Assembly: GCA_030427905.1 (NCBI GenBank)
Contig: JAUICL010000001.1
Span: 806,001-870,000, forward strand
Length of the DNA stretch: 64,000 bases
From: Bacteroidia bacterium
GTDB taxonomy: Bacteria; Bacteroidota; Bacteroidia; Flavobacteriales_D; Cryomorphaceae
Reading direction: 5' to 3'
A program made the position numbers and the translations under genes. Numbering within the stretch: position 1 is the first letter of the stretch; the number at the start of each line of letters is the position of its first letter. This document shows positions 25,152-30,097 of the stretch, in pieces. The notes under the pieces are model-generated. The model worked only from the letters and a program-made list of their open reading frames with translations. It was not told the origin of the DNA and did no database searches.

Positions 25152-25934
25152 CTATTGTTCTAGTTGGTAGATAGCGACGGCTAATTCCAAGAAACCTTCG
25201 GGTGATACTTGCTCTGGTCTGAGCTTCATGAAGGCATCGAGGCTCGAAACGTCTTTCCCAGCTATCAAGCTCGAAAGGCTATTCTTCAGAGTTTTTCTCC
25301 GCTGATTGAAGGCGAGCTTGACGACCGTTTTGAAAAACTTGTCGGTGACGGGGAGCTCCTTCCGTTCGTTTCGGGTTAGCCTGATTACGCCGCTTTTTAC
25401 CTTTGGTGGTGGATTAAAAGCCTGTTCGTCAATCGTAAATAGGTATTCACCTTTGTAGTAGATCCCAAGTAGTACACTCAGAATCCCGTAGATTTTTGAT
25501 CCAGGGCCGGCAATAGCTCGCTCGGCCACTTCCTTCTGAAACATACCCACCATTTCGGGGATCAAATCTTTGTTCTCGAAGATTCGGAACAAGATCTGAG
25601 ATGAAATATTGTAGGGAAAGTTTCCAGCCAAGACAAAGGGAGAACCGTTGAAAAGCACTTCGAGATCCATTTTTAGAAAATCTCCATCAATCACTTTTCC
25701 CTGAAGCTGTGGAAAGTGTTGGTTGAGGTAGTCTATCGACTCCTTATCGATTTCAACTACCTTAAAATCTTCAAACCCGAGAGCCAGAATCTCTTGAGTG
25801 AGCACACCTGTTCCTGGTCCAATCTCTAAGACTGGCGTACCTTCCTTCGGCGATTGAATGGCCTGCGCTATCGAGGCTGCTACTCCATCTTGAACGAGAA
25901 AATGCTGACCGAGGTGTTTTTTTGGTTTTACCAT
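25152..25934 (-). CDS. rsmA: 16S rRNA dimethyladenosine transferase RsmA (KsgA)
   Basis: This 260-residue methyltransferase adds four methyl groups to two adjacent adenines near the 3' end of 16S rRNA, a late check on small-subunit assembly. The S-adenosylmethionine site VLEIGPGTGVLTQEI, the acidic EIDKESI and the catalytic NFPYN (usually NLPY) are intact, as is the N-terminal KKHLGQHFL. It begins 2 bases after the DUF4286 gene ends, so the two are coupled. Confidence 0.96.
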   Translation of the reverse strand: MVKPKKHLGQHFLVQDGVAASIAQAIQSPKEGTPVLEIGPGTGVLTQEILALGFEDFKVVEIDKESIDYLNQHFPQLQGKVIDGDFLKMDLEVLFNGSPFVLAGNFPYNISSQILFRIFENKDLIPEMVGMFQKEVAERAIAGPGSKIYGILSVLLGIYYKGEYLFTIDEQAFNPPPKVKSGVIRLTRNERKELPVTDKFFKTVVKLAFNQRRKTLKNSLSSLIAGKDVSSLDAFMKLRPEQVSPEGFLELAVAIYQLEQ

Positions 25935-25936
25935 AA

Positions 25937-26245
25937 TTACTTGTGGTCAATCACGTCGAGTAAGGTGCGAAAGGCTGCGGTATATCTTCCGTAACGATCG
26001 GTGTGATCTTTTTGGAGCCTTGGTGCATCTTCTTTCTGGTAAGTCTCAAGCGCATCCATCGATTTGGCTCGGTATTGAATGCTGTAGGCAAACCCACCGG
26101 CTTCTTCCGCCAAAATTTTAGAAAATGTGGAGCCATGGAAGTGTCCAGTTGCCAGTACATCTGGAATGTGCTCATCCTTCATCCATTTCACCCACTCCTC
26201 GTGGACTGACTCGTCTACGTTTACCGTTACATTGTATATGACCAT
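25937..26245 (-). CDS. DUF4286-family protein
   Basis: This 102-residue protein starts at ATG 26245 (MVIYNVTVNVDESV); the frame is open further but the family N-terminus is here. The order VHEEWVKWMKDEHIPDVLATGHF, then the YSIQYRAKSMDALETY repeat of a ferredoxin-like (alpha-beta barrel) fold, matches the small DUF4286 family, found next to rsmA in many Bacteroidota. No function is known to me. A TACCTTTG -7 box lies at 26267-26274 on the minus strand. Confidence 0.8.
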   Translation of the reverse strand: MVIYNVTVNVDESVHEEWVKWMKDEHIPDVLATGHFHGSTFSKILAEEAGGFAYSIQYRAKSMDALETYQKEDAPRLQKDHTDRYGRYTAAFRTLLDVIDHK

Positions 26246-26266
26246 GTCCGAATTGTCGATTTTCAG

Positions 26267-26274
26267 CAAAGGTA
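26267..26274 (-). promoter_or_regulatory. -7 element for the DUF4286-rsmA unit
   Basis: TACCTTTG on the minus strand is an exact TAnnTTTG match about 22 bases before the start of the DUF4286 gene. No convincing -33 box is seen. Confidence 0.35.
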
Positions 26275-26332
26275 GTTTATTTCAATGGCGGAGACTTGAG
26301 ACCTATTCATCGAATTGCTTAATTTGGTGCTT

Positions 26333-27556
26333 ATGGATCCCGTAATCTTATCGATTCCAATATTCTTTATCCTTATAGGGATGGAAGTGGCCTATGGCTA
26401 CTTCAAAAACAGAAAGCTCTACAGGCTAAACGACGCTGTGGCAAATATCAGCTGTGGTATAGTGGAACAGTTGACGGGTGTTTTTGCTAAGGTTTTCACC
26501 GTGGCAGCTTACGACTTTATCTTTCGACACTACGCCATTTTTGAACTTGAGAATACCTGGTATTGGATTGTTTTGTGCTTTATCGGAGTTGACTTTTTCT
26601 ACTATTGGGCACATAGGATGAGTCACGAAGTAAATCTGTTTTGGCTTGGCCACGTGGTACATCACCAAAGCGAAGATTACAATCTTTCGGTGGCATTGCG
26701 TCAGAGTACCTTCCAGAAAATGTTCACTTTCTACTTCTATTTTCCTTTGGCGTTCTTGGGATTTAAAACTGAGTGGTTCCTCCTGATGGGTGCATTTAAT
26801 CTGCTTTATCAGTTTTGGATCCACACCGAAGTGGTCAAGAAGATGCCTCGGTGGTATGAGTACTTGTTTAATACCCCTTCGCACCACCGCGTTCACCACG
26901 GAAGAAACCCGATTTACATAGACCGAAACCACGCCGCTACCCTCATGATTTGGGATCGCATGTTTGGTACTTTTCAAGAAGAGAAGGAAGCACCGATATA
27001 CGGTATCACCTCGCCGACTAATTCATGGAATCCGGTTACGGCCAATGTCCAACCCTTCGTACGCTTGTGGCATGAGCTGAAGACAATTCCTGGTTGGTGG
27101 AACAAGTTCAAGTTTGTGTGGGCTCCTCCGGGTTGGTATCCGGCAGAAATGGGCGGGTTTCGAGCCGCTCCAGAAGTAGACCGAAGTACCTACCATAAGT
27201 ACGAGGTAACTCTGAGCCCCAAGCTCAATTTTTACTTGTTCTTCCAATATCTGATTTTATTGGTTGGGACTGCTTTGTTTCTCTTCACTTTGGGCAACTA
27301 TACCACCATTCAGCAAATCGTTATTGCTGGGCTTCTTATCGGATCGGTAGGTGTGCTCGGTTCTATTTTTGACAACAAGCAAAAGGCGATTCGAATAGAG
27401 CTTATCCGAGTTTTTGCTTCGATTTTGGTTTTGTCATTTTTAGTGATTCAGGGCTTAATGCCCCTGGGCATAGCTATCGGTTTTGGTCTATTCGGCTTCG
27501 TTTCGGTTGGCGTTTTGAGTCGAATCGATGTTCATCAAATCTCATTGCGACCTTGA
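26333..27556 (+). CDS. alkylglycerol-monooxygenase-like fatty acid hydroxylase
   Basis: This 407-residue membrane protein belongs to the fatty acid hydroxylase/sterol desaturase superfamily of di-iron enzymes. Its eight-His cluster is visible: HRMSHE near residue 102, HVVHHQSEDYNLSVALRQS near 113 and HRVHHGRNPIYIDRNHAAT near 188, followed by IWDRMFGTF. The second and third boxes resemble animal alkylglycerol monooxygenase (TMEM195), which cleaves the ether bond of alkylglycerols, more than they resemble sterol desaturases. The later part (about 300-400) adds four hydrophobic segments. ATG 26333 is chosen over the upstream TTG. The next gene, a lysoplasmalogenase, overlaps it by 4 bases, supporting an ether-lipid role, although the substrate is inferred. 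Confidence 0.8.
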   Translation: MDPVILSIPIFFILIGMEVAYGYFKNRKLYRLNDAVANISCGIVEQLTGVFAKVFTVAAYDFIFRHYAIFELENTWYWIVLCFIGVDFFYYWAHRMSHEVNLFWLGHVVHHQSEDYNLSVALRQSTFQKMFTFYFYFPLAFLGFKTEWFLLMGAFNLLYQFWIHTEVVKKMPRWYEYLFNTPSHHRVHHGRNPIYIDRNHAATLMIWDRMFGTFQEEKEAPIYGITSPTNSWNPVTANVQPFVRLWHELKTIPGWWNKFKFVWAPPGWYPAEMGGFRAAPEVDRSTYHKYEVTLSPKLNFYLFFQYLILLVGTALFLFTLGNYTTIQQIVIAGLLIGSVGVLGSIFDNKQKAIRIELIRVFASILVLSFLVIQGLMPLGIAIGFGLFGFVSVGVLSRIDVHQISLRP

Positions 27557-28260
27557 GTAAAATTTCTGCTGGATTATTCATCCTCGCTTTGGCTGTTCAC
27601 ATCGTTTCTGGAGAACTAGGTCAAGCCATGATTGCCCTCGGCTCAAAAATCCTTTTGATGCCTATCCTTTTTGGGGTGTGGTTACGAAAGATTGGTTTGA
27701 ACTCCATCTTTAAGAAGTCGATTTTTTTAGGGATGATCATGTGTTGGCTCGGGGATATACTCTTGATTTATCAGCGCGTAGACGGGGTTTACTTCATACT
27801 GGGTCTGAGTGCTTTTTTGCTGGGGCACATCGGTTACATCGTAGCTTTTACCCGCACCGGTGATGAAGGTCATAACATTGCTCTGATAAAAAGACAGGGG
27901 TGGGTGATGGTCCTTGTTTTTGCTTACGGCTACTTCTTTTTTAAACGTCTTGAGCCACATCTGGGAGAAATGATTTTCCCAGTAATTCTCTACACCATCG
28001 TAATCTGCTTGATGCTACTGATGGCTGTAAATCGATATGAACGAGTTGAGCGAAAGAGCTTTCAGCTAGTAGTGATTGGGGCCATTCTCTTTGTCGCTTC
28101 AGATAGCATTTTGGCCTGGAACAAGTTTGTTGACCCACTTGTATTCAGCCATACGCTCATCATGAGTACCTATGGATTGGCTCAACTTTTCATCGCATCA
28201 GGAGCGATGATTCAAGGAAATAACGAATCTGTAATTACGGATTCTTCTCGATCGGTGTGA
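27553..28260 (+). CDS. YhhN-family lysoplasmalogenase
   Basis: This 235-residue protein has about eight membrane segments and the YhhN/TMEM86 signatures WLGDILLIYQ, AFLLGHIGYIVAF and VASDSILAWNKF, with conserved acidic residues thought to form the active site. Family members hydrolyse the vinyl-ether bond of lysoplasmalogens to an aldehyde and a glycerophospho-compound. It starts at TTG 27553, inside the stop of the hydroxylase gene, so the two are translated together. Its 3' end overlaps the convergent TPR gene by 26 bases. YhhN activity in bacteria has been shown for some members only. Confidence 0.82.
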   Translation: MSKISAGLFILALAVHIVSGELGQAMIALGSKILLMPILFGVWLRKIGLNSIFKKSIFLGMIMCWLGDILLIYQRVDGVYFILGLSAFLLGHIGYIVAFTRTGDEGHNIALIKRQGWVMVLVFAYGYFFFKRLEPHLGEMIFPVILYTIVICLMLLMAVNRYERVERKSFQLVVIGAILFVASDSILAWNKFVDPLVFSHTLIMSTYGLAQLFIASGAMIQGNNESVITDSSRSV

Positions 28261-30097
28261 TCTCGGCTGGCCCAGATTCCCCATCTCCACGCAAGGCTCT
28301 GAACCGCTTTCGGGCGTCAACTACGAAAAGACTACCCGGAAAATCTACAAGGAGCTGCTTGTAAAGTTCTTTTGCTTTTTCTTCATCACCCAATTTCTCT
28401 TCGTAGATCAAAGCCATCTCATAAAGGGCATTGTCGGCCGTGATATCAAAATAGTGATTAGCGACCACTGATTGGTAATAAGAAATAGCCTGTTCGAAAT
28501 CGTATTGCTCTTCGGCTATTTGGGCTTTTCGCATCAAGATTTCATCGCTCAGTGCGTGGCCAGGGTACTCGGTGAGTATGCTGTCCATTGCCGAAATGGC
28601 CGTCTCGTATTGTCTTTGGACGATCATCAGATCTGCTCGGGCAAACATGAGCATAGGCTCCATGATGGTGTCGAGGTTCATATTGTCGGTGATCAGTAGG
28701 GAAAGCTCCATGGCATCGTTGCTGATCAGTTTCGAAGTACTCCCTTTAAGTACATCCAGCTGAGCTTGAGCCCATGAAAAGTCTCCTGCATAGTAGCTAA
28801 TTTCCGCATTCAGAAACTTAGCTCGGTAACCAAGAATATCATTCTTATAGTCCTTGTCGACTTGGGAGCAGAGTAAGCTAGCATCCCAGATATAGTCGCG
28901 AGCGATGAGAATTTCTGCGAGATCTAGCTTAATCTCGCTGCGTGTGTCTGGGTGAATACCTGGTAAATCCAGCGCATCATTCAGGGTCACGTTGGCTGCT
29001 TCGAAATCACTGAGATAATAGGCTTCTAGCACGGCTTTTTGACGCATCATTCCCACCACTTCACTCTGACCTTGCAGATCGGCTATATTCTGCTCATAAT
29101 CTTGCTTGAGCAAAATGAGCTGAGTACTATCGGGTGGAAAATTCGATCTGATGGTTTCAAAACGCGCCTTGAGAATTCCCGCTTTAGCAAAAGGGTAGTA
29201 TGGATTGTCGGGCCCTTTCTCGACGATGTATTCATAAGACTTTTCAGCAACATCATAGGCCTGATTATTCATACACAGGCTAGCTAAATTCAGTAGTCTA
29301 TGCCCGTCTTCTCCAAGTCGCTTATCGATTGCTTTGAGCTGCACATAGGCCGAGTTAAACTCTTTTTGCTGCAAAAACAACCAGATGAGCATCTGTGAAT
29401 AAACCGTGTTTTGGGGTGACTTTTGAACGCGTCTTAGTAGTTCAGTTCTGAGGAGCTCAACTTTTTCAAAGTCGTTTTCAAAGTTGATACTCCGATTTAG
29501 GGCATTCTGAACGGTTTGAAGGTAGGCGTCGTTGAACTCGATCAGATCCAAATAGGATGTAATCATAAGTTCTGTGTCGCCCATGGTTCCGTAGAGGCTA
29601 GCCAACTCGTAGCTAAACGGGTAGGCCCCGTCCAGGAGTTTTTTGCCATAATTGTACGTGTCCAGCGCCAAGTTGAGTTTATTCATTCTGATAAACTCAT
29701 TGGCCGTGCGGATCACCGTTCCTTGGCTCTTAGGCATTTTTTGAATGGCATCGCGGTACGCATCGTCTGCATCCTTCGTTTCATCCTGCGCTTCGTAGAC
29801 TTTACCCAAATCGATGTAGAGCAGATTCGAACCAAATCGCTTCATCTGCCTTTTGATCAACTTCTCTGATTCTTTGTACATCTGAAGCTCCATCTGGCAT
29901 TTCAGCAGGCCCCGGTAGTGCGCATTCGATGGCTTTTCAGTGTATATCTTCTCGTAGTAGAGTAGGGCTTTATCGAATTCTCCCGTGTCGAAGTAGTAAT
30001 TAGCTAACTCCTCATCACTCGACTGACCATACGCATGGTTGACTTCCACTGAAAACAGGGATATAAACAAACAGACGATGGCAGTTCTTAAAATCAT
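28235..30097 (-). CDS. secreted TPR-repeat protein
   Basis: This 620-residue protein has a signal peptide (about residues 1-25, ending HAYGQ) and then TPR repeats over nearly its whole length, for example ANYYFDTGEFDKALLYYEKI near the start and EQAISYYQSVVANHY near the end. The C-terminus is polar and unstructured (RGDGESGPAEITPIEK). It is probably a periplasmic or outer-membrane-associated scaffold. The upstream lipoprotein gene overlaps by 4 bases, so the two may form a complex. The convergent lysoplasmalogenase gene overlaps its stop. Confidence 0.85.
   Translation of the reverse strand: MILRTAIVCLFISLFSVEVNHAYGQSSDEELANYYFDTGEFDKALLYYEKIYTEKPSNAHYRGLLKCQMELQMYKESEKLIKRQMKRFGSNLLYIDLGKVYEAQDETKDADDAYRDAIQKMPKSQGTVIRTANEFIRMNKLNLALDTYNYGKKLLDGAYPFSYELASLYGTMGDTELMITSYLDLIEFNDAYLQTVQNALNRSINFENDFEKVELLRTELLRRVQKSPQNTVYSQMLIWLFLQQKEFNSAYVQLKAIDKRLGEDGHRLLNLASLCMNNQAYDVAEKSYEYIVEKGPDNPYYPFAKAGILKARFETIRSNFPPDSTQLILLKQDYEQNIADLQGQSEVVGMMRQKAVLEAYYLSDFEAANVTLNDALDLPGIHPDTRSEIKLDLAEILIARDYIWDASLLCSQVDKDYKNDILGYRAKFLNAEISYYAGDFSWAQAQLDVLKGSTSKLISNDAMELSLLITDNMNLDTIMEPMLMFARADLMIVQRQYETAISAMDSILTEYPGHALSDEILMRKAQIAEEQYDFEQAISYYQSVVANHYFDITADNALYEMALIYEEKLGDEEKAKELYKQLLVDFPGSLFVVDARKRFRALRGDGESGPAEITPIEKNP

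Follow-up and report, generated by a model that had tools for sequence, protein, structure and literature searches.

What would a bacterium do with a hydroxylase gene resembling that of animal alkylglycerol monooxygenase (AGMO) when this gene runs directly into one for a YhhN/TMEM86-type protein? AGMO cuts the saturated alkyl ethers of alkylglycerols and lyso-alkyl-phospholipids with tetrahydrobiopterin and O2 and does not act on vinyl ethers (PMC7911779, PMC9131029). Lysoplasmalogenase cuts the vinyl ethers of lysoplasmalogens, and both enzymes release a fatty aldehyde (PMC9131029, PMC7911779). YhhN is a lysoplasmalogenase in Mycobacterium tuberculosis and Legionella, yet many microbes that carry it do not synthesize plasmalogens, and why such microbes keep the enzyme was stated to be an open question (PMC9052158). 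In our view the chances are about even that the two genes studied here form a translationally coupled module for the cleavage of lyso-ether-lipids.

The pair is located in a window of 64,000 nucleotides (G000:C5:806001-870000, the whole stretch that was analysed) of a 3.81-Mb genome that is 99.8% complete. Gene 1 (26333..27556, plus strand), for the 407-amino-acid AGMO-type di-iron membrane hydroxylase, starts with the ATG at 26333 and stops with the TGA at 27554-27556. This start is likelier than the longer TTG start at 26315 given in the open reading frame list, since homologues share the beginning (M)DPVILSIP. Gene 2 (27553..28260, plus strand), for the 235-amino-acid putative lysoplasmalogenase, starts with the TTG at 27553 and has its stop at 28260, and the start and stop codons of the two genes overlap in the sequence TTGA (27553..27556, plus strand). 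On one side are the genes for a DUF4286 protein (25937..26269, minus strand, start codon uncertain; PF14114, E 1.5e-36) and the 16S rRNA dimethyltransferase RsmA (25152..25934, minus strand; TIGR00755, 238.8 bits, above the cut-off). On the other side is a convergent gene for a protein matching TPR families (28235..30097, minus strand), whose final 26 bp are shared with the end of the YhhN gene. The pair is thus on the plus strand, and the flanking DUF4286/rsmA/mgtE and TPR/serS genes, which are housekeeping genes, are all on the minus strand. The initial annotation had the positions of both genes, the start of gene 2 within the stop codon of gene 1, and the strands of the pair and its flanks right, and the histidine boxes it quoted are present in gene 1. 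Promoter and terminator scans gave nothing exceeding shuffled controls.

The gene 1 protein belongs to the FA_hydroxylase family (PF04116, E 7.6e-28). Residues 298-375 match the C-terminal AGMO domain AGMP_C (PF24858) weakly (15 bits, E 0.025, under the 28.3-bit cut-off), and 21 of 36 relatives match the same domain at an E of 0.05 or lower, the best at 1.4e-7. Identity with human AGMO is 37% across 384 amino acids, which is nearly the full length. The human sequence used is sound enough for this comparison, because all 15 residues numbered in PMC7911779 land on the correct letters. Of these 15 essential residues of human AGMO, the gene 1 protein retains 14. Among them are all nine histidines of the metal site (H94, H98, H107, H110, H111, H164, H185, H188, and H189), which are invariant across the 36 relatives. 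Of the further essential residues Q162, D233, N235, Y236, W243, and D244 (PMC7911779), five are identical; Y236 corresponds to H200, and 19 of the 36 relatives also have histidine there. In a tree of 77 rows, human AGMO is nested among 60 bacterial proteins of the long type in one clade (SH-aLRT 98), on a long branch that makes its exact placement unsure, and eight sterol-desaturase-type paralogs, one of them from the same genome, fall outside this clade (support 97). The alignment, the essential residues, the tree, and the PF24858 matches of the relatives support the assignment of gene 1 to the AGMO type rather than to the sterol desaturases, as had been proposed from the histidine boxes, and the tree suggested at that time placed the protein with AGMO and away from the sterol-desaturase-type paralogs. 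The AlphaFold2 model has a mean pLDDT of 92.6. A Foldseek search with this model gave no significant match, and a second structure comparison returned yeast Scs7p (4zr0; Z 5.4 across 159 residues in the catalytic half) alongside many helical bundles, so that this likeness is weak support. A search of PDB sequences with both proteins of the pair found no relative, the match to PRELID1 being weak and off-family. The ornithine lipid hydroxylase OlsE (NF052566) belongs to the same FA_hydroxylase superfamily, but gene 1 scores only 60.3 bits against a cut-off of 475.

The gene 2 protein matches PF07947 (YhhN) with 149.1 bits (cut-off 25.6, E 1.4e-43). Its residues K32, G67, D68, H92, G176, S183, D184, and Y207 correspond to TMEM86A K43, G81, D82, H104, G182, S189, D190, and Y213, a set of eight put forward as the catalytic residues of TMEM86A/B (PMC11994398), with a spacing that closely matches TMEM86. 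Seven of these eight positions are invariant in nine AGMO-linked YhhN proteins, and H92 is replaced in two of them. The model is all-helical (mean pLDDT 87.1). These results support the assignment of gene 2, already annotated as a YhhN/TMEM86-type gene, to a putative lysoplasmalogenase with all eight proposed catalytic residues in place.

Is the arrangement of the two genes conserved? We surveyed 60 genomes of the order to which the genome belongs, counting long AGMO at 44% identity or higher. Long AGMO is present in 18, YhhN in 26, and both in 16 (2x2 test, p = 6e-6, which is a guide only since the genomes are related), and in all 16 the genes are adjacent on one strand with AGMO first. A GTDB scan found the pair at nine Bacteroidota loci, including three Pedobacter species, Cytophagales, and others, and in an even draw across the phylum the AGMO gene adjoins YhhN in 6 of 26 YhhN-bearing genomes, including two additional families, f14 and f17. 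In the Rhodanobacteraceae (Gammaproteobacteria) the order is reversed, with YhhN before AGMO in 11 of 12 loci. The start/stop overlap of the N-TGA type is kept in six of eight genomes of the same family, with a start 2 nucleotides later in the other two, which indicates that the TTGA overlap is not due to chance, and the Rhodanobacteraceae have the same kind of overlap in 10 of 11 loci in the opposite gene order. On the tree, the pairing label needs 5 to 6 changes. Among 80 GTDB AGMO loci, no neighbour other than YhhN was discernible as recurrent outside Pseudomonas. The proposals that the two genes are translated together and that their pairing should recur in related genomes thus held up, and since the two genes also adjoin in another phylum with their order reversed, a joint role is very probable. 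Many bacterial AGMO-like genes in the GTDB scan have no adjacent YhhN, and in the even draw YhhN stands alone in many genomes. A fusion of the two proteins was looked for in the fetched loci and none was seen. In one genome of the order (G051), YhhN is followed almost directly by a gene for a shorter FA_hydroxylase protein (L134:8034-9647), downstream of a leuS-like gene. In Pseudomonas (L063-L105), AGMO-like genes are common, have no YhhN nearby, and are found in a conserved neighbourhood of their own. The other conserved genes of this neighbourhood gave no lead.

How could the two enzymes work together? The gene 1 enzyme would be a di-iron membrane monooxygenase that uses a reduced pterin and O2. 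It would hydroxylate alkylglycerols or lyso-alkyl-phospholipids at the carbon that adjoins the oxygen of the saturated alkyl ether, and the resulting hemiacetal would break down, releasing a glycerol derivative and a fatty aldehyde. Products of this kind would also arise when the YhhN enzyme hydrolyses the corresponding lysoplasmalogens at their vinyl-ether bond, so that between them the two enzymes would remove sn-1 ether chains of both types from lysolipids. These lysolipids would most likely be foreign, of eukaryotic origin, and serve as food or be detoxified, and the released aldehyde would pass to an aldehyde dehydrogenase. The analysis shows to which families the two proteins belong, that the catalytic residues are largely present, that the genes are coupled, and that the pair recurs in two phyla and in both orders. 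The role in ether-lipid breakdown is inferred, and with it the substrates and cofactor, the way in which the pathway runs, and the idea that the lipids are foreign. A broader and tentative possibility, somewhat short of an even chance, is that bacteria have at least twice assembled a two-enzyme module dedicated to degrading both the alkyl and the vinyl lyso-ether-lipids of other organisms. If true, such a module would be the bacterial equivalent of ether-lipid catabolism in animals, and it would explain the lysoplasmalogenases kept by plasmalogen-free bacteria.

CarF/PEDS1 was not found in 60 relatives, including the own genome, by a search that was positive in a Myxococcus control, and a search of 12 genomes, the own genome among them, did not find the PlsA-type DUF2229. 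Based on these searches for CarF and PlsA, the organism is not expected to make a vinyl-ether lipid of its own, and the substrate is more likely to be a foreign lyso-ether-lipid or a lipid not yet considered. In one Myxococcus sp. (G060; L119/L167), both an AGMO-like gene and CarF/PEDS1 are present, and this organism could make and cut ether lipids. The tetrahydrobiopterin genes, which the initial annotation had suggested looking for, were found in part. There are two separate tandem pairs of PTPS and folE (GTP cyclohydrolase) genes (L162:2900-3947 and L163:2866-4024) and a Biopterin_H protein (pterin-dependent aromatic amino acid hydroxylase), but PCD (PF01329), which serves in pterin recycling, had no match in the own genome and is present in most of the pair-bearing relatives tested. 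The pterin genes permit a tetrahydrobiopterin-type cofactor and do not prove it, as such genes have roles in queuosine, folate, and aromatic amino acid metabolism as well. One of the PTPS-folE pairs adjoins phytoene synthase- and IDI-like genes. The Biopterin_H protein has 587 amino acids and is matched in two separate stretches (L164:2023-3783; G000:C3:641380-642192); the own genome shares this long type and the lack of a PF01329 match with G010, and G003 and G004 have a shorter type (about 255-265 amino acids) together with PCD. At one locus (L050), an aldehyde dehydrogenase gene is located 140 bp downstream of the pair on the same strand, and no other fetched locus has one adjacent. Against the cleavage module we count the CarF, PlsA, and PCD searches, the change of Y236 to histidine, the single aldehyde dehydrogenase locus, and the many AGMO-like and YhhN genes that occur without each other.

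An alternative that accommodates the lack of ether-lipid synthesis genes in the CarF and PlsA searches is that the two enzymes remodel one of the organism's own lipids, other than a glycerol ether. In this case an aminolipid or sulfonolipid would be hydroxylated on an acyl chain by the AGMO-like enzyme, much as ornithine lipid is by OlsE, and the product, or the lyso form of it, would then be hydrolysed by YhhN. Unusual aminolipids are abundant in Bacteroidota, and the OlsE match of 60 bits, weak as it is, points the same way. We consider this explanation unlikely, because that match is far under the 475-bit cut-off, gene 1 keeps most of the AGMO-specific residues and a weak match to the C-terminal domain, and YhhN keeps the lysoplasmalogenase residues. 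It is also conceivable that gene 1 encodes a C-H oxidising enzyme of a small-molecule pathway, with YhhN as a general lysolipid detoxifier that is a neighbour by chance. A precedent is PRUB680 of Pseudoalteromonas rubra, a bacterial AGMO-like oxygenase that acts on the non-lipid prodigiosin and cyclises it (PMC6667630); we set it beside gene 1 by its description, and its substrate differs from the one we propose. With no biosynthetic cluster around gene 1, and with the repeated coupling to YhhN in two orders arguing against chance, this is quite improbable. Least probable of all, to the point that we give it little weight, is that the genes are co-transcribed hitchhikers linked by one old accident and without a shared function: the linkage in Bacteroidota may have few origins and many genomes have the genes apart or only one of them, but the number of changes on the tree, the reversed yet similarly overlapping pair of another phylum, and the fact that no other recurrent AGMO neighbours were seen outside Pseudomonas all argue against it.

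Returning to the cleavage module, its two components have well-known counterparts. Gene 1 resembles AGMO/TMEM195 in its nearly full-length similarity, its nine histidines, five of the six further essential residues, and a weakly matching C-terminal helical domain; it differs in being bacterial, in the histidine at Y236, and in its coupling to YhhN, and its pterin dependence and substrate are predicted. Gene 2 resembles the YhhN/TMEM86 lysoplasmalogenases (EC 3.3.2.2; Legionella, M. tuberculosis) in its PF07947 match, its eight catalytic positions, and its all-helical model, and differs in being translated with an AGMO-type gene in a genome where no plasmalogen-synthesis genes were found. Bacterial AGMO-like and YhhN enzymes are thus each already known, and it is the coupled module that looks new; no report of the pairing was found in the literature searched. 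The conserved coupling, present in two phyla and in both gene orders, is a direct clue to the question of the plasmalogen-free YhhN carriers and makes for a simple assay. It has proved difficult to purify AGMO reproducibly (PMC7911779), and a bacterial relative may be easier to study.

The chromosomal site gives some indication of how the pair arose. In families f3, f6, f8, and f10 the TPR and DUF4286 genes adjoin in one direction, and rsmA comes immediately after them in G012 and G036. In the own family, the pair lies between TPR and DUF4286; G002, G003, and G006 have an additional 1.3 kb or so between TPR and YhhN, with an MFS transporter gene there in G003. In several genomes of f4 and f9 the pair is beside DUF4286-rsmA and TPR is elsewhere. 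The uninterrupted TPR-DUF4286-rsmA order of related families agrees with the suggestion that the serS-rsmA region is otherwise continuous and that the pair may be an insertion, and insertion at the TPR/DUF4286 site is a reasonable reading of these gene orders. The G+C contents of the two genes (0.447 and 0.434) are like the surroundings, so that base composition gives no hint of a recent transfer. In family f7, YhhN without AGMO is located between TPR and DUF4286 on the opposite strand, directly in G013 and with further genes in G023 and G029. YhhN may have come first with AGMO added later, or AGMO may have been lost in f7. At the same site in f7 (L137:2859-5719 and L138:2857-5600), DUF4286 and YhhN are separated by a long gene (622-661 amino acids) and a deacylase-like gene.
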